Positions 39,006 to 45,802 of a stretch of 51,576 nucleotides of DNA are shown here, piece by piece. How positions within the stretch are numbered: position 1 is the stretch's first letter; each line of letters opens with the position of its first letter. The notes under the pieces are model-generated. The model ran no database searches and was not told where the DNA came from. It was given only the letters and a program-made list of their open reading frames with translations. The DNA is from Vasconcelosia minhoensis LEGE 07310 (GTDB lineage Bacteria; Cyanobacteriota; Cyanobacteriia; Phormidesmidales; Phormidesmidaceae): NCBI RefSeq assembly GCF_015207255.1, contig NZ_JADEXG010000037.1, forward strand, positions 1 through 51,576, read 5' to 3'. The translations under genes were made by a program, and so were the position numbers.

Positions 39006-39896
39006 CTAGGAGCATTCGGGCCGATACCACACCAGGGCCGTTCCCGCTTCGCTACGCCAGCGAATCCAGCCTTCGCTACTGCGGGCGCCGGTCAGCGGCT
39101 GACAGGCCGCAGCAGGCCGGGTGACGCGCACGCGCATCCAGTCACCCTCGAAGGCCAGCGGCGCCATCAGGCTGCGATCGCTGATAAAGGAAATGACATT
39201 AGTCGCGGCTTCGGGCTGCGATCGCAGCACCCGCGACCCCCTCGCCTGCCGAAAGTAAAGCGCCGCCTCCGACTCCAGTCGGTCTTCCCAGGTTTCGACC
39301 GTCAGCGGCATCTCCCCCAGGCCGAGCTGCGAGGTATGCGCCCAGGCGCTGCCGCCCGGCGTATACTGCACCCGAAACCAACCGTCTTGGCGAATTTCTA
39401 GGACGGGGAACGTGAGTAAGTTATCAAAGCTGCGCAGCATCGCAAACCCGGCATCGCGGCCGATCGCCAGGTAGGGCTGGCCGTTGGGAATCAGCCAGCC
39501 GCGATACAGCCAGCCCCAGTGTGGCCCGCCGGGCGACCCATACAGCGGCAGCTCGACCGTTTGCAGCCAGCCCGCGCCGAGCTGGTCAGCATTGTCCTCG
39601 GGCTGGGTCAGAAAGCTCAAATCCTGCGGCCGCAGATGGCCGATACCCAGGTCAATTTCGCGATTCTCAGTCAGGTCGGCGATGCCTGCCGGATTGGGCG
39701 CGAATGCATCCGGGGCGGGCAGCGGCAGCGGTGGCGTCGGTATCCGGTTCGGCTCTGAGGGGACAGCCGCAGGCGGAGCGGTCGGCGAGGTTTCCTGAGC
39801 TTGACCGGGCAGGGCCAGGCCAACCCATCCTAAGACCGTCAGCGAGGCGACGCCGAGACGAAGCCAGCGCTGAGAAGGGCAAAAAGGCTGATACAT
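39006..39896 (-). CDS. Secreted SH3-like domain protein
   Basis: A 296-residue exported protein. The N-terminus (WLRLGVASLTVLGWVGLALPGQAQ-E) is a signal peptide, followed by a Pro/Thr/Ala-rich linker (to about residue 65). Two or more SH3-type beta segments follow, each with W, G and V spacing (WGWLYRGWLIPNGQPYLAIG, RVLRSQPEAATNVISFIS, WMRVRVT). No enzyme motif is seen. Start placed at the ATG at 39896, with a second in-frame start three codons earlier. Possible cell-wall or matrix binder. Confidence 0.7.
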   Translation of the reverse strand: MYQPFCPSQRWLRLGVASLTVLGWVGLALPGQAQETSPTAPPAAVPSEPNRIPTPPLPLPAPDAFAPNPAGIADLTENREIDLGIGHLRPQDLSFLTQPEDNADQLGAGWLQTVELPLYGSPGGPHWGWLYRGWLIPNGQPYLAIGRDAGFAMLRSFDNLLTFPVLEIRQDGWFRVQYTPGGSAWAHTSQLGLGEMPLTVETWEDRLESEAALYFRQARGSRVLRSQPEAATNVISFISDRSLMAPLAFEGDWMRVRVTRPAAACQPLTGARSSEGWIRWRSEAGTALVWYRPECS

Positions 39897-39975
39897 AAGC
39901 TTCACAACCAGGACTCGATAGACAGAAACCCAGCCGGGTTTCCCAGTTTCTCATTTTAACCTGTCGTCGATTCGC

Positions 39976-40089
39976 TTATTCTACCCGGCGCTGCCCCGCC
40001 GGGCAGAGGTCTAGCAGCACACAGCGATCGCACTCCGGCCTTCGATAGTGACAGCGATGAACGGTGAGCAGCAGCGCCTGAGAAGTCAC
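39976..40089 (-). pseudogene. Endonuclease III (nth)-like C-terminal remnant
   Basis: A 37-residue frame starting at a GTG overlapping the ureB stop ends LLDLCPAGQRRVE. It contains Cys residues spaced C-x6-C-x2-C-x5-C (CHYRRPEC, DRC, VLLDLC), which is the [4Fe-4S] cluster signature at the end of endonuclease III. The rest of the enzyme, including the helix-hairpin-helix and catalytic Lys/Asp, is absent. It looks like the tail of a gene left after a rearrangement at the end of the urease block. Confidence 0.6.
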
Positions 40090-40394
40090 TCCAACGCCCC
40101 ATTCACCCTCCCATTCAACCCATACACCTCCCGGCTCCCCGCCAGCGTCACCAGCGTCACCGAGCGCTGATCCCCTGGCTCAAACCGAATCGCCGCCCCA
40201 GCCGGGATATCCAGCCGCATTCCCCGGGCCGATTCGCGGTCAAAGGCCAGGGCTTCGTTTACCTCGTAAAAGTGAAAATGCGACCCCACCTGGATGGGGC
40301 GATCGCCCTGATTGGCTACCTCTAAAGTTACCGTCGCGCGACCGGCGTTGAGCTCAAGGTCGTCGCTGGCGGGCATTATTTCACCGGGAATCAT
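40086..40394 (-). CDS. ureB: Urease subunit beta
   Basis: A 102-residue urease beta subunit; begins MIPGEIMP and includes [19 protein letters not shown] and [15 protein letters not shown], all family signatures. It forms the structural ring of the UreABC enzyme that hydrolyses urea to ammonia and carbonate. Its start overlaps the stop of the upstream S41 peptidase gene by 4 bases and uses AGGAGG inside that gene. ureC, normally next, is missing; an endonuclease III-like tail follows the stop instead. Confidence 0.93.
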
Positions 40395-41449
40395 CGCAAT
40401 CCTCCTAATTGACTGACTAAGTCTTGCTGTTTGCGGTTGAGTTCGGCCTCCACCACCGTATAGGTCTGCTCAATTTCTCGCCGCAGGCTGGGCATCAGGT
40501 CGCTTTCCAGCAGTCGCTTAAACGCAAGCAGCTGGGCCGTCTGGGGCGCTAGCTCCGCGGGCACCTTAAAGTCTGGCAGAATGCCGCTGCCCTCCCAGCT
40601 CTCCCCAGTCAGCCGGCTGATCGCCTGCCCGGTTGGGATAAACATCCAGAAATGGTCGTGCAGCCGATAGCCGCGACCTGGATTGGCACACCCCGCCGTC
40701 GTTTCACCGACTAGCGTAGCCCGGCTCAGCTGCTTTAAGTTATAGACAAATTCCTCCGCCGCCGAGCCGGTTTCAGCGCCAATCAAAACGTAGACCGGTT
40801 GATCGTAGCGCTGCCCCGGCAGGTAGGGCAGCGTCCAGGACTGCTGCACCCGGTCTTCGCCGGGCCAGTAGAGGTCGTTCAGGTGGATGGGTGGATAGTC
40901 CGGCAGCAGGTAGCTGCACAGCATCGCCACCATCGCCGGTGAGCCGCCGCGGTTGTGGCGCAGGTCCACAATCAGGGCGCTGGTGTGAGCCAGAAAAGTC
41001 ATAGCCGCGATCGCGGTTTCCCCCGCAAACTCCGGCGGCTCAAAGCTAAACAGCTCCAGATAACCAATATTTCCCCGCAGTCGCTCCACCCGGTTAAAGT
41101 CAAAATTGCGTAGCTGGCTCAGCAATCGCTGTTCGGCTAGCTCCTCTGGGGAAATTTGCTGCTGCGGGTCGAGCTGGGGCAGGGGCACCGGGCTAAAGTG
41201 CAGCTTTAGCTGGCGATCGTTGCTCAGGGACTGGAGCTGCGCGGTCAGGGTAGCCGCTAGCTGCTGGCCGCTGCGGACGTCTTTATAGCCGTCTGCTAAG
41301 CGATCTTCCAGATCGGCCTGGAGCTTTTGCGCTATTTCGGGAAAGGCATAGTGGTCCAGATGCTCAATCACCGCCTGGAGCACCGCCGTCCGAGTCTCGG
41401 CGTCGAGGGGTAAATCGTCGTCAGGCAGGCGGCGGGAAGCGGGGCTCAT
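40391..41449 (-). CDS. S41-family peptidase (IRBP-like) inside the urease operon
   Basis: A 352-residue S41 (tail-specific protease/interphotoreceptor retinoid-binding-like) protein. An N-terminal helical region (about 1-90) precedes the protease core: [19 protein letters not shown], the [14 protein letters not shown] strand-turn and the nucleophile Ser229 in [11 protein letters not shown], then [13 protein letters not shown]. There is no signal peptide, so it is probably cytoplasmic. It begins 4 bases after ureA and overlaps ureB by 4 bases, in the position where these two urease genes are normally adjacent. No link of such a peptidase to urease is known to me; the coupling suggests a shared expression unit. 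Confidence 0.82.
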
Positions 41450-41453
41450 AGGG

Positions 41454-41756
41454 CTAGCGAATTGGGTTATGAACGGTGACTAGCTTCGTCCCGTCGGGGA
41501 AAGTTGCCTCGACCTGAACGTCGGGAATCATCTCAGCGACGCCCTCCATCACCTGGTCGGGGGACAGCAGGGTGGTGCCATAGTCCATCAACTCGGCTAC
41601 CGTCCGCCCGTCCCTAGCGCCTTCTAGGATAGCGGCAGAGATCAGGGCAACGGCTTCGGGATGGTTGAGCTTGAGACCGCGATCGCGCCTGCGCTCGGCC
41701 ACCAGCGCCGCCGTAAAGATCAGCAGCTTGTCTTTTTCCTGGGGAGACAGTTGCAT
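41454..41756 (-). CDS. ureA: Urease subunit gamma
   Basis: A 100-residue urease gamma subunit. [40 protein letters not shown] and the C-terminal [21 protein letters not shown] are diagnostic. It is the first structural gene of the urease block on the minus strand, 90 bases after ureD. Its stop is followed within 4 bases by the S41 peptidase start rather than ureB. Confidence 0.95.
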
Positions 41757-41846
41757 AGGCTTGCCCTGCGGTTCACAATTACATTCATTCGTTATATCAG
41801 GTTCGCGCCCCGGCTTACAGTCATCCCAGCCCTGGGGGCCGAGCTT

Positions 41847-42713
41847 TTAGCTGGACTTTGAACTCGGCCCCCACACCCGGGGTGGGCAGGCCGCCGACTG
41901 CCCTAGCTGAGGCCGCAGCGCCTGCCAGACCTGGGTAAACCACTGCCGCGCCTGCTGGCTGGAAGTCCCCCGATAGCGACAAAGTAAGCCTTTCATCAGG
42001 CTGGTCACGCCGATATCAGCGCCGCCCGCCAAGGCTCTCAGGGAATCGAGCTGGGCCGGATCAAAGTCATGCCCCAGAATTGCGATAGCGCCCACGACCG
42101 GATACCCCGCCAGTCCATGGGCGCTATCGAGCACTGCTGAACCGCCGACCAGCCGCTGCCGGTCAATCCACAGCGGTCGCCCCGCCTGCCATACCTCAGT
42201 AGCACTCTGCCATTCCCCCGCTGTAAACCGCTCCCCCCGAGCGCTGCGGCCAAACCGGGTAATCTCCCAGCCCGTCCACACCGCCGCTGGCCCCAGCTCT
42301 ACCCGTAGGCTTTGGTGAAAGCGCCCGCCGCTGAATAGGATGGTTTCCTGGGGCAGCCACTCGCCGTAGGCGCCGGCCTCCAGCCGCAGATCGATCCGCT
42401 GCTGCGCCACCGCCCCGCTGCTGCGATAGACCTTGTGCGCCGCCGTCGTCGTCACCAGGGCCTGGCTGCGCTCGCCAAATCGGACCTGAATATCTAACCC
42501 ATCACCCCCGACCATGCCCCCCGCCGTATGCACGATCGCGCTCTGACAGCTGCCCGAATCGTCTGGGTAAAAAGGCCGCTGGAGCCGCAGGGGAGCGCTA
42601 GTATAGCTGCGCAGCGGCATTGTTTTTCCCTGACGCTGCTCAAAGCTGAGTTTGAGGCTGCCCTGCCAGCCCGAAGTTGAAATAGGTGATAAATCGAAGG
42701 CAGTTTGAGGCAA
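41847..42713 (-). CDS. ureD: Urease accessory protein UreD
   Basis: A 288-residue UreD/UreH. Conserved segments are RPFYPDDSGSCQSAIVHTAGGMVGGD and the TTTAAHKVYRSSG stretch, then the EWLPQETILFSGGR and TGWEITRFGR motifs. It helps UreF and UreG deliver nickel to apo-urease. These partners and UreE are not in the window. It heads the minus-strand urease operon. Confidence 0.93.
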   Translation of the reverse strand: MPQTAFDLSPISTSGWQGSLKLSFEQRQGKTMPLRSYTSAPLRLQRPFYPDDSGSCQSAIVHTAGGMVGGDGLDIQVRFGERSQALVTTTAAHKVYRSSGAVAQQRIDLRLEAGAYGEWLPQETILFSGGRFHQSLRVELGPAAVWTGWEITRFGRSARGERFTAGEWQSATEVWQAGRPLWIDRQRLVGGSAVLDSAHGLAGYPVVGAIAILGHDFDPAQLDSLRALAGGADIGVTSLMKGLLCRYRGTSSQQARQWFTQVWQALRPQLGQSAACPPRVWGPSSKSS

Positions 42714-42759: not shown

Positions 42760-43389
42760 ATGGCTCAAACCGTTTCAGTCGATCAGGTCACACTCTATGA
42801 CTTAGAGCAGCGGTTTGGGCTGCGACAGGTCGAGTCTGGAGGATTCTTTCCGGAATGGCAAGCTGAGCTCCCTAAGCTAACCGATGCCGAGCAGCAGCGA
42901 CTCGCTAGGGTTGAGGCTGCTGTCGCCAATTTAGAACATCGTTCCGTGCTCGAAAACACGGTCAAGCTTGCCGTTATCGCCCCGCTGCTTGATTTAGCGG
43001 GATTGTTTTTACCGCCGTTTTATGTCACGACAGAAAAAACGGTTGACATTGAAGCGGCTGATAATAGTCTGACAGTCAGGGGACGACTCGATATTTTAGT
43101 CCTGCAAGATCGGCTTTGGGTAATGGTGATCGAGTCTAAGCGGGCTGAGTTTTCGCTTAAAGTTGGCATTCCCCAAGTACTGTCCTATATGCTTGCAGCA
43201 CCTGAACGAAGGCAGCCTTTGTACGGCTTGGTGACCCATGGAACCGATTTTATATTTCTAAAGTTAGACCACGCCGGACCGAACTATGCGCGATCGCACC
43301 AGTTCGTCTTAGGTCAAAACGCCGGACTGGCGCGAGTACTGCAAATTATGAAGCATCTAGCCGCAGCGATTAGTCCAATCGAAGGCTGA
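42760..43389 (+). CDS. PD-(D/E)XK nuclease-like protein (restriction endonuclease subunit R-type)
   Basis: A 209-residue protein of the small cyanobacterial group annotated as restriction endonuclease subunit R. The nuclease core RGRLDILVLQDRLWVMVIESKRAEFSLK carries the Asp and Glu-x-Lys of the PD-(D/E)XK fold. No methylase or specificity subunit is adjacent, so it is not part of a recognisable restriction system. It is divergent from ureD, 46 bases apart. Confidence 0.78.
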   Translation: MAQTVSVDQVTLYDLEQRFGLRQVESGGFFPEWQAELPKLTDAEQQRLARVEAAVANLEHRSVLENTVKLAVIAPLLDLAGLFLPPFYVTTEKTVDIEAADNSLTVRGRLDILVLQDRLWVMVIESKRAEFSLKVGIPQVLSYMLAAPERRQPLYGLVTHGTDFIFLKLDHAGPNYARSHQFVLGQNAGLARVLQIMKHLAAAISPIEG

Positions 43390-43488
43390 ACTTTCCACCC
43401 AGAGACAGAAAGTTGGCCCAGACAGATTCGGATTTTCTCATGAAGCCTTAACCTAACCTTGTTAGGCTTTCGGCGTTTGAATTCTTCT

Positions 43489-43536
43489 GGAGTTCTTTAT
43501 GGAGTACTTTTCGGGGTTCTTTCTAGGACCCTTTAT
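43489..43536 (+). repeat. 12-bp imperfect tandem repeat leader of egtB
   Basis: Four head-to-tail 12-base units occupy the 48 bases that end 3 bases before the egtB ATG: GGAGTTCTTTAT, GGAGTACTTTTC, GGGGTTCTTTCT and AGGACCCTTTAT. Each contains an SD-like G-rich core. The frame through them is open and in phase with egtB (G-V-L repeats). It could affect translation of the operon or be a slippage product. Confidence 0.65.
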
Positions 43537-43539
43537 AAT

Positions 43540-44796
43540 ATGCAGCTTTCTCAAGTGACGGCGCCCGAACGCGCTCCGCTGTCTGAGCGCTATCAGCAGG
43601 TGCGTCAGCTCAGTGCCGCCATCTGCCAGCCGCTGACGGCTGAAGACTCGGTGATTCAGTCCATGCCCGACGTGAGCCCGCCGAAGTGGCATCTGGCCCA
43701 TACCACCTGGTTTTTTGAAACGTTCTTGCTCAAGCCTTACCTAAAGGGTTACGAGGTCTTCCATCCCAAATTCAACTATCTGTTTAATTCTTACTACGAG
43801 AGCGTCGGCGACCGCCAGCCGAGACCCCAGCGGGGATTGCTGTCCCGACCGACGCTGGAGGAAGTCTATGCCTATCGCGCCTATGTCGATCAGGCCATGC
43901 AGCGGCTGATGTCGGAGTCTGCCGAAGTAGACGAATCGCTGCTTCAGCTCGGGCTGCACCACGAACAGCAGCATCAGGAGCTGTTGCTCACCGACATCAA
44001 ACATATTCTGGCAACGAATCCGCTGCGGCCCGCCTATCGCACAGACCTGCCGCAGCCGCCGAATGAAGCGGCTCAATCCCGCGAGCAGTGGCTAGACTAT
44101 CCCGGTGGCCTTTACACCCTAGGGCATACGGCATCGGAATTTGCCTTTGATAACGAGGGACCGTCGCATCCGGTCTATCTCCAGGACTATTGGCTGGCCG
44201 CTCGTCTGGTCACCAACGGTGAGTATTTAGAATTTATTGAAGCAGGCGGCTACCAGACGCCCGACTACTGGCTGGCAGAGGGCTGGGCGACTGTTCAAGC
44301 GGAGGGCTGGCAGGCCCCGCTGTACTGGGAGAAAGCAGACGGCTGGGCGGTGATGACGCTGGGCGGACTGCGATCGCTCCCCCTGCATGAACCGGTCTGC
44401 CACGTCAGCTTTTTTGAAGCCGACGCCTTTGCCCGGTGGGCCGATAAGCGGCTGCCCACCGAAGCCGAATGGGAAGTCGCTGCCGCTTCAGTCCCCCGCC
44501 AGGGCAACCTGCTGGAGCAGGGCTACCTCCAGCCCATTGCAGCCCGCGGCATGACCCGCCCCGACCAGCTCTACGGCGATGTCTGGGAATGGACCCAGAG
44601 CGCCTATCTGCCCTACCCCGGCTTCAAGCCCGTCCACGGCGCGATTGGCGAATACAACGGCAAATTTATGAACGGCCAGCGCGTCCTTAAAGGAGGCTCC
44701 TGCGCTACGCCGCCGGGCCATATACGACCCACCTATCGCAACTTTTTTCCACCCCAGGCCCGCTGGCAGTTCAGCGGCATTCGCCTAGCCCGCTAA
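43540..44796 (+). CDS. egtB: Ergothioneine biosynthesis protein EgtB
   Basis: A 418-residue non-haem iron sulfoxide synthase. The DinB-like N-terminal half contains the iron-binding HHEQQHQE (H-x3-H-x-E) motif at about residue 140, plus PPKWHLAHTTWFFETFLL. The C-terminal FGE-sulfatase domain includes RLPTEAEWEVAA, GDVWEWTQSAY and RVLKGGSC. EgtB joins gamma-glutamyl-cysteine or cysteine to trimethylhistidine. The start at 43540 fits the family; the frame runs upstream through the tandem repeat. It is 46 bases ahead of egtD. Confidence 0.9.
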   Translation: MQLSQVTAPERAPLSERYQQVRQLSAAICQPLTAEDSVIQSMPDVSPPKWHLAHTTWFFETFLLKPYLKGYEVFHPKFNYLFNSYYESVGDRQPRPQRGLLSRPTLEEVYAYRAYVDQAMQRLMSESAEVDESLLQLGLHHEQQHQELLLTDIKHILATNPLRPAYRTDLPQPPNEAAQSREQWLDYPGGLYTLGHTASEFAFDNEGPSHPVYLQDYWLAARLVTNGEYLEFIEAGGYQTPDYWLAEGWATVQAEGWQAPLYWEKADGWAVMTLGGLRSLPLHEPVCHVSFFEADAFARWADKRLPTEAEWEVAAASVPRQGNLLEQGYLQPIAARGMTRPDQLYGDVWEWTQSAYLPYPGFKPVHGAIGEYNGKFMNGQRVLKGGSCATPPGHIRPTYRNFFPPQARWQFSGIRLAR

Positions 44797-44842
44797 GGCT
44801 GTCACCGCACCATAAACGTCGATTAAATCTTAAACAATAACA

Positions 44843-45802
44843 ATGTCTATTTCTTCATCTCAGACCTTTGCTGACGCTCAGGGAGAGGCGCTGATGGCTA
44901 CCGCGATCGCGGGTCTCTCCCAGTCGCCCAAGGTGCTACCGGCCAAGCTGCTCTATGACGAACGCGGCTCCCAGCTGTTTGAAGCGATCTGCGACCTGCC
45001 GGAATACTATCCCACCCGGACTGAAATTGGGATTTTGCAGCGTCATGCCGAACAGATAGCGACGCTAATCGGCTCCAACGCCCAGCTGATCGAATTCGGC
45101 AGCGGCTGGAGCATTAAAACTCGGATTTTGCTGGAGGCGATTGACCAGCTGGCTAGCTATGTGCCCATTGATATCTCCTGTGAACCGCTGCTGGAGTCGG
45201 CTCGCAAGCTCCGGGCCGCCTATCCCCATCTCCAGGTACATCCGCTCTGCGTCGATTACGAACAGGATTTCTCCCTGCCCGATAATGAACAGTCCCGGCT
45301 GCGGCGGGTCGCCTTCTTTCCCGGCTCCACTATTGGCAATTTTCCTCAGCCCGAGGCCCGCGCTTTCCTCAACCGCATTGCCGACCTGGTCGGACCCGAC
45401 GGTGCCCTGCTGATTGGTGTCGATTTGCAAAAAGATCTCGACATTTTACTGCCCGCCTACAACGATGCCCAGGGCATCACGGCTGAGTTCAACCTCAATC
45501 TGTTGCATCGGCTCAACCGCGAGGCCGGCGCCAATTTTGAAGTTGAACAGTTTGAGCATTGGGCCATCTGGAATGAGGCTTTTGGTCGCATAGAGATGCG
45601 CCTGATCTCGCAGAAAGAACAGAACGTTCAGATTGGCAATGCGACATTTAACTTTCAACCCGGCGAGTCGATCTGTACGGAATATTCCTATAAGTACACC
45701 CTAGAAGGCTTTGCCCAGCTGGCCGAGCGATTCAGGGTAGAGGAGGTTTGGACGGATGCGCGATCGCTGTTCAGCGTTCAATACTTAACCCAAATCGATT
45801 AG
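44843..45802 (+). CDS. egtD: L-histidine N-alpha-methyltransferase EgtD
   Basis: A 319-residue SAM-dependent methyltransferase that trimethylates histidine in ergothioneine synthesis. Diagnostic segments are LLYDERGSQLFEAICDLPEYYPTRTE, the SAM-loop LIEFGSGWSIKTR, FFPGSTIGNF and the C-terminal ICTEYSYKY. It follows egtB and so forms an egtB-egtD unit. EgtA, EgtC and EgtE are not here; cyanobacteria can lack them or encode them elsewhere. Confidence 0.93.
   Translation: MSISSSQTFADAQGEALMATAIAGLSQSPKVLPAKLLYDERGSQLFEAICDLPEYYPTRTEIGILQRHAEQIATLIGSNAQLIEFGSGWSIKTRILLEAIDQLASYVPIDISCEPLLESARKLRAAYPHLQVHPLCVDYEQDFSLPDNEQSRLRRVAFFPGSTIGNFPQPEARAFLNRIADLVGPDGALLIGVDLQKDLDILLPAYNDAQGITAEFNLNLLHRLNREAGANFEVEQFEHWAIWNEAFGRIEMRLISQKEQNVQIGNATFNFQPGESICTEYSYKYTLEGFAQLAERFRVEEVWTDARSLFSVQYLTQID

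Follow-up and report, generated by a model that had tools for sequence, protein, structure and literature searches.

We describe here a urease locus of the cyanobacterium Vasconcelosia minhoensis LEGE 07310 in which a gene for a protein of the peptidase family S41 lies between ureA and ureB. It is found in what we call the window, the whole stretch of 51,576 nucleotides (nt) that was analysed (contig NZ_JADEXG010000037.1), and its features are collected in Table 1. The order ureD-ureA-S41-ureB, noticed in a preliminary description of this DNA, was confirmed by the open reading frames (ORFs), their strands and their Pfam matches. The same holds for the spacing pointed out there: four bases (41453-41450) separate ureA from the S41 gene, the S41 stop codon TGA (40393-40391) shares bases with the ATG of ureB (40394-40392), and the AGGAGG within the 3' end of the S41 gene (40406-40401) stands 6 nt ahead of that ATG. 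Ser229, within the motif GSAAEEF, is also present as described, and the reported lack of a signal peptide agrees with the N-terminus of the S41 protein, in which no hydrophobic stretch was seen by eye.

Table 1. Features of the urease locus in the window
Feature	Position	Strand	Basis
ureD	41847..42713	-	Pfam UreD 2e-58; TTG start as listed
ureA, urease gamma subunit	41454..41756	-	Pfam Urease_gamma 6.6e-47; NCBIfam NF009712 above cut-off
IRBP-type S41 protein, 352 amino acids (aa)	40391..41449	-	Pfam Peptidase_S41 8.7e-22 and Peptidase_S41_N 3.3e-11
ureB, urease beta subunit	40086..40394	-	Pfam Urease_beta 8.1e-46; NCBIfam NF009682 above cut-off
AGGAGG, Shine-Dalgarno-like site for ureB, within the S41 coding region	40401..40406	-	sequence
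ATGA, where the S41 stop and the ureB start overlap	40391..40394	-	sequence
Cluster c5 gene, conserved neighbour	39006..39905	-	clusters with genes adjoining ureB or S41 in relatives

Conservation of the gene order and of the S41/ureB junction

The arrangement is real and is present in most of the examined genomes of one cyanobacterial family, as a variant of the urease operon that contains a probable pseudo-peptidase. Our sample of the taxonomic order consisted of 63 genomes, all of one family and with the window's genome included; as these genomes are related, the counts do not stand for independent events. S41 was found in 58 of them, ureA in 59, ureB in 56 and ureC in 51. Judged by coordinates, ureA-S41-ureB stood on a single contig in 36 genomes belonging to six genus groups, while in five others (G386, G410, G412, G420, and G422) the trio was interrupted by contig ends, and in G435 ureA and S41 were together with ureB on another contig. 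This same order in 36 of the 63 genomes rules out a chance insertion in one strain, and the genome search suggested in the preliminary description has thus shown an order not confined to a single strain. In the remaining 16 of the 58 S41-bearing genomes the gene was apart from ureA and ureB (we call these genes unlinked), which indicates that S41 is not tied to urease, and in five of the 63 genomes no S41 was found. Two of the 16 genomes with unlinked S41, G390 and G391, were searched for ureA and ureB and neither was found; G391 (L138, L069), rated 99% complete, does have ureC. In G422 the S41 gene (L136:2785-3679) is split across two frames, by a frameshift or an assembly error.

Beyond the family few matches were found. 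Among 386 genomes of the phylum, an S41 match at E<=1e-20 was found in five, three of them from the window's family (the window's own included), and outside this family there was a match only in G185, plus a partial one in G101; the IRBP-type N-terminal domain was found in four of the 386. When genome contigs were searched with the S41 protein, 22 loci were recovered, every one of them cyanobacterial, with ureA and/or ureB beside S41 in 18 (one of them in Nodosilinea nodulosa PCC 7104, L019) and not in the other four.

The junction with ureB is highly uniform. The S41 stop and the ureB start overlap in all of the 37 readable junctions, 28 times as ATGA and 9 times as TAATG, and in every one of them the last 24 nt of S41 contain a match of at least 5/6 to AGGAGG (6/6 in 25). 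Among the 16 unlinked S41 genes a 5/6 match was present in two and a 6/6 match in none, and G435, where ureB is not beside S41, scored 3/6. The TAATG form was found in all eight genomes of genus group g148, whose UreB proteins extend 4-12 residues further at the N-terminus, ahead of the usual IPGEL or VPGEL; their ureB start was taken to be the overlapping ATG, and the site scores of 3-4/6 obtained against the start of the BLAST match were not used. That the overlap persisted although its form changed points to selection on coupling. From such a conserved anatomy we infer that ribosomes ending S41 can re-initiate at ureB, and the tight integration with ureB proposed in the preliminary description holds as a conserved trait. 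Between 38900 and 42800, a search for promoters and terminators returned a single promoter-like site, which is on the + strand, and four that resemble terminators, of which one is on the - strand within ureD (42002-41987). Neither count exceeds that in shuffled sequences, so that a separate promoter for S41 or ureB was neither supported nor excluded.

The gap between ureA and ureB receives other genes elsewhere in the phylum. In 60 of 146 sampled genomes we found 63 ureA copies, of which 39 had ureB within 250 nt, 13 (the window included) had it at 257-1939 nt, and 11 lacked a same-strand ureB in the 10 kb downstream. In family f7 (L208-L213) the gap contains an AAA_21 ATPase and a DUF4276 protein (by Pfam in L210 only and by eye in four more, the second gene of L213 being truncated), which looks like a defence-type pair, and in G111 (L217:1376-1701) a Phd/YefM-YoeB-type toxin-antitoxin pair. 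The other gaps read held a Uma2-like gene just below the cut-off and an ORF without Pfam match. With such varied inserts, the S41 gene is not unusual in kind; what is unusual is that it has long been conserved and that it overlaps ureB. The suggestion of a chance insertion therefore survives to the extent that the gap holds other inserts in other cyanobacteria, and gives way before the conserved overlap and the purifying selection documented below.

The S41 protein and its active-site positions

With 77.9 bits to Peptidase_S41 (PF03572) against a cut-off of 24, the protein belongs to the S41 family. The best match in a PDB search was retinol-binding protein 3 (IRBP), at E 4e-143 when its four modules are summed and at 6e-46 for a chain of one module, and the match was stronger still in a profile search. 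Peptidase_S41_N followed by Peptidase_S41, with IRBP as the best solved relatives, makes it an IRBP-type module, while NCBIfam matches of the S41A type were weak and under the cut-off. Three further open frames of the genome, 445-487 aa long, match S41. An AlphaFold2 model (20-row alignment A1) reached a mean predicted local distance difference test score (pLDDT) of 56.6 and a predicted template modelling score (pTM) of 0.43 and was not used; since it was not confident, the placement of the catalytic triad rests on sequence alignment.

The catalytic triad of CPAF is His105/Ser499/Glu558 (PMC8787135). Window positions were equated with this triad by motif and by the spacing between Ser and Glu (57 vs 59 in CPAF). 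At these positions the window protein has Gln80, Ser229, and Glu286, so that of the residues of a His-Ser-Glu peptidase the Ser and the Glu are there and the His is not. Position 254 (Ser+25), which we take to be the place of the general-base Lys of S41A peptidases, is Cys in the window, and the Ser-Lys dyad is therefore also incomplete. Peptidases of the S41A type (CtpA, Prc) have the S41 core domain in common with the window protein, which differs from them by this Cys254 and by the lack of a PDZ match.

The pattern extends to the family. We compared 53 members, omitting from the counts and from the S41 tree the five of the 58 sequences shorter than 300 aa (those of the genomes with interrupted trios) and the partial G101. 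Position 80 is His in six, and otherwise Asn (22), Gln (15), Ser (8), Thr (1) or Ala (1); position 229 is Ser in 45 and Thr in all eight of g148; position 286 is Glu in 19, Asp in 21 and something else in 13. Gly occupies position 254 in 41 members and Lys in all eight of g148, and the combination of Ser229 with Lys254 was found in none of the 53. The eight g148 proteins (L087-L093, L099) all have instead the pair Thr229-Lys254. Among the 241 core columns, of which 64 are invariant, position 80 ranks 20th and position 286 ranks 18th in variability, although D78 and W285 are invariant.

Homologues from other bacteria look different. S41 proteins were found in 27 plasmid records, mostly of actinomycetes and proteobacteria with one Hymenobacter (Streptomyces, Nonomuraea, and Janthinobacterium are among the others), at 31-44% identity to the window's over the matched part. 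Of two checked by Pfam, one had both domains over the cut-off and the other had S41 over and S41_N under it. In the ten that were read, the His of the D-x-H motif and the Ser were present in all, and the Glu of the WEG-type motif in eight; Shinella (Gly286) and Methylosinus (Asp286) are counted here but stand outside alignment A2. Several of the ten, unlike the family, have starts that resemble signal peptides by eye, and no urease genes were annotated in their short flanks, three of these stretches having no annotation. The "intact core" of the preliminary description is thus right for Ser229 but not for the conserved His, replaced by Gln80 in the window. Judged by these residues, membership among working His-Ser-Glu peptidases would fail on the His and membership in S41A on the Lys, and we consider the protein a probable pseudo-peptidase.

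A comparable change has been described in vertebrates. IRBP is an S41 module that has lost the active-site serine and has turned into a carrier (PMC10450429; PMC11750400). The window protein is like it in its module, and aligned IRBP modules likewise show erosion at the places of the His and the Ser, in a pattern that varies by module (by eye). The proteins of the family differ in being bacterial, of a single module, without a visible signal peptide, located in a urease operon, and in having mostly kept the Ser and mostly lost the His.

Selection, history and urease genes elsewhere in the genomes

The ratio of nonsynonymous to synonymous substitution rates (dN/dS, Nei-Gojobori) of S41 was 0.037-0.131 in 18 of 18 pairs, linked and unlinked alike, with dS values of 0.25-2.2, of which the larger are near saturation. 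Copies that seemed non-orthologous were not used (ureB of G402/G403, G432/G433, G440/G441, and G436/G438; ureA of G436/G438). Such low values, whether linked or not, show strong purifying selection and indicate that S41 has been kept as a protein, apart from any reading-frame role for ureB.

In a tree of the 53 family sequences and G185, the linked/unlinked label needs three changes, both with the 37 linked rows that include G435 and without G435, and a single clade of linked rows was rejected (p 4.6e-6). The root was placed at the midpoint, beside G185 and the linked genus g147. As drawn, it allows one gain and two losses of the linkage, one loss in g152 (sister to the window) and the other in g2/g150/g146/g153 (sister to G435). 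The flanks of the unlinked S41 match those of linked relatives in 12 of the 16 genomes. Four g148 loci (L087, L088, L090, and L091) have the run kinase-BioD-like-M20-ureD-ureA-S41-ureB-c5-ureC, the other g148 loci being cut, and all five g152 genomes have kinase-BioD-like-M20-S41 without urease genes, followed in four of the five by c5 and a 529-aa gene that by eye is like the GH57 gene of the window (in one case with a small ORF between). Along similar lines, G392 has M20-c9-DUF3318-(one ORF)-ureD-ureA-S41-ureB and g2/g153 have M20-c9-DUF3318-S41 (7/7). In the unlinked G394, G431, G432, and G433 the neighbours are different or only partly common. The reverse direction, in which urease genes would have been inserted on both sides of S41, would need equally many events and is disfavoured only by the placement of the root, which is unsure.

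The family shares with the usual cyanobacterial cluster ureD-ureA-ureB-ureC the order of ureD and ureA followed by ureB, and in g148 also ureC. It departs from that cluster by S41 between ureA and ureB, by c5 between ureB and ureC in g148, and, in the window's genome (161 contigs, 5.26 Mb), by two ureC genes that are both on other contigs, so that this urease is dispersed, with its D, A, and B genes in the window. Around one of these ureC genes (contig C70) neither ureA nor ureB was present in the 8.5 kb read. Contig C42 (1681-4108; L006, L141) carries a further complete ureA-ureB-ureC set, which is of a different type and whose ureA is 52% identical to that of the window; ureA/ureB of this type recur in seven other members of the family and in two genomes of the outgroup. 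Dispersal is seen in g149 as well, where the trio is on one contig in 22 genomes and ureC, found in 19 of them, is on another contig or more than 100 kb away; no ureD was found in the flanks read of the g149 trio loci.

The unlinked g152 has a urease that is likely of foreign origin, to judge from its genes, although monophyly of the family is not rejected. Its ureD (type I) is 22-27% identical to the window's, against 51-59% in the other family genomes read, its ureC is at 75-78% in the three read and at 65% in one second piece, and it forms a long branch in the ureA+ureB tree. This tree, for which the g149 rows were thinned from 26 to 8, is weakly resolved, and a single clade for the whole family was not rejected (p 0.16 with g152 and 0.25 without it).

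Possible roles of the S41 protein and neighbouring genes

The explanation that we favour, and to which we give about an even chance, is that the gene between ureA and ureB encodes a pseudo-peptidase which has its own binding function and whose translation is coupled to that of UreB. In the family's ancestor, a gene for a cytoplasmic-looking, single-module protein of the IRBP type would have been inserted into an ancestral ureD-ureA-ureB-ureC cluster. Its last codons, as read in the sequence, would supply the ribosome-binding site and the overlapping start of ureB, and ribosomes finishing S41 would re-initiate there, coupling the supply of UreB to the translation of S41. By analogy with vertebrate IRBP, the protein may bind a peptide or a hydrophobic ligand in the old cleft. 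It most likely binds and does not cleave, because the Ser-His-Glu site is eroded in most members despite purifying selection, and its function is probably its own, because S41 is found without ureA or ureB beside it in two lineages, where the urease genes would have left and S41 stayed. Several observations weigh against this explanation. The window keeps Ser229 and Glu286, and the complete His-Ser-Glu set is found in four members of g152 and His-Ser-Asp in two of g149, so that these six could possibly be active peptidases. Moreover, the direction of gain and loss depends on a midpoint root and on one long outgroup row, G185, and the ureA+ureB tree does not reject a single clade for the whole family.

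A pseudo-peptidase dedicated to urease, acting as a scaffold that binds UreA, UreB or the UreABC apoenzyme while urease is assembled or receives its nickel, with its synthesis between the two subunits being functional, seems to us rather unlikely. The place between ureA and ureB is conserved, the g149 trio stays intact though ureC is distant and ureD is absent from the flanks read, the stop/start overlap is retained in two forms, and the protein looks cytoplasmic and is under purifying selection. However, S41 does not occur only with linked urease genes, as seen in the 16 unlinked cases and in G390 and G391, it is nearly absent outside the family in a phylum where ureA is common, and overlapping genes are hard to separate even when they share no function. 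A related and likewise unlikely idea is that a horizontally acquired S41 peptidase became, in this one cyanobacterial family, a non-catalytic partner of urease, binding a subunit or an assembly intermediate through its old cleft and made in step with UreB through coupled translation; if true, it would mirror in bacteria the transition from peptidase to carrier behind vertebrate IRBP. It is improbable that S41 is only a historical passenger that landed in an insert-tolerant gap, with the overlap as a by-product of gene packing that has no regulatory meaning: the long gaps and varied inserts elsewhere in the phylum would fit, but the overlap and the embedded site, retained in all 37 junctions even when the form changed, are more uniform than packing needs. 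An active peptidase using the remaining Ser (Thr in g148) with a different base, such as Lys254 of g148, which occupies the S41A dyad position, is very unlikely; Ser229 is indeed common and Thr229 with Lys254 constant in g148, but the window has Cys and most members Gly at position 254, Ser229 and Lys254 never coincide, and the His and Glu positions drift. Hardly credible, finally, is a peptidase that processes urease, for which the genomic position speaks but not the loss of the conserved His, which the window protein and 47 of 53 members lack, nor the occurrence of S41 without linked urease, nor UreA and UreB of ordinary length with full-length family matches. The earlier proposal that the protein processes or assembles urease is accordingly left unsupported, given this loss, the unlinked genes and the two genomes without detected ureA or ureB.

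Keyword searches of PubMed Central, with some queries too broad or too strict, found no description of a urease operon that contains an S41 or IRBP-like gene. An extra gene between two structural urease subunit genes, present in a large part of a family, offers a natural test of gene order and translational coupling in the supply of subunits. The insert is also the kind of bacterial protein from which vertebrate IRBP is held to have arisen, with the same active-site positions eroded within bacteria, and a soluble, single-module bacterial pseudo-peptidase could reveal the ligands of such a module and the way in which catalysis gives way to binding.

In the window, the c5 gene and the GH57 gene are kept downstream of ureB. 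A Pfam scan of the window's c5 gave no match; its start resembles a signal peptide by eye, and the c5 of one relative has a sub-threshold match to SH3_3. Divergent from ureD, at 42760-43389 (+), there is a protein like type I restriction HSDR_N, under the Pfam cut-off, and beyond it, at 43459-45802 (+), two adjoining ORFs resemble by eye EgtB and EgtD of ergothioneine synthesis.

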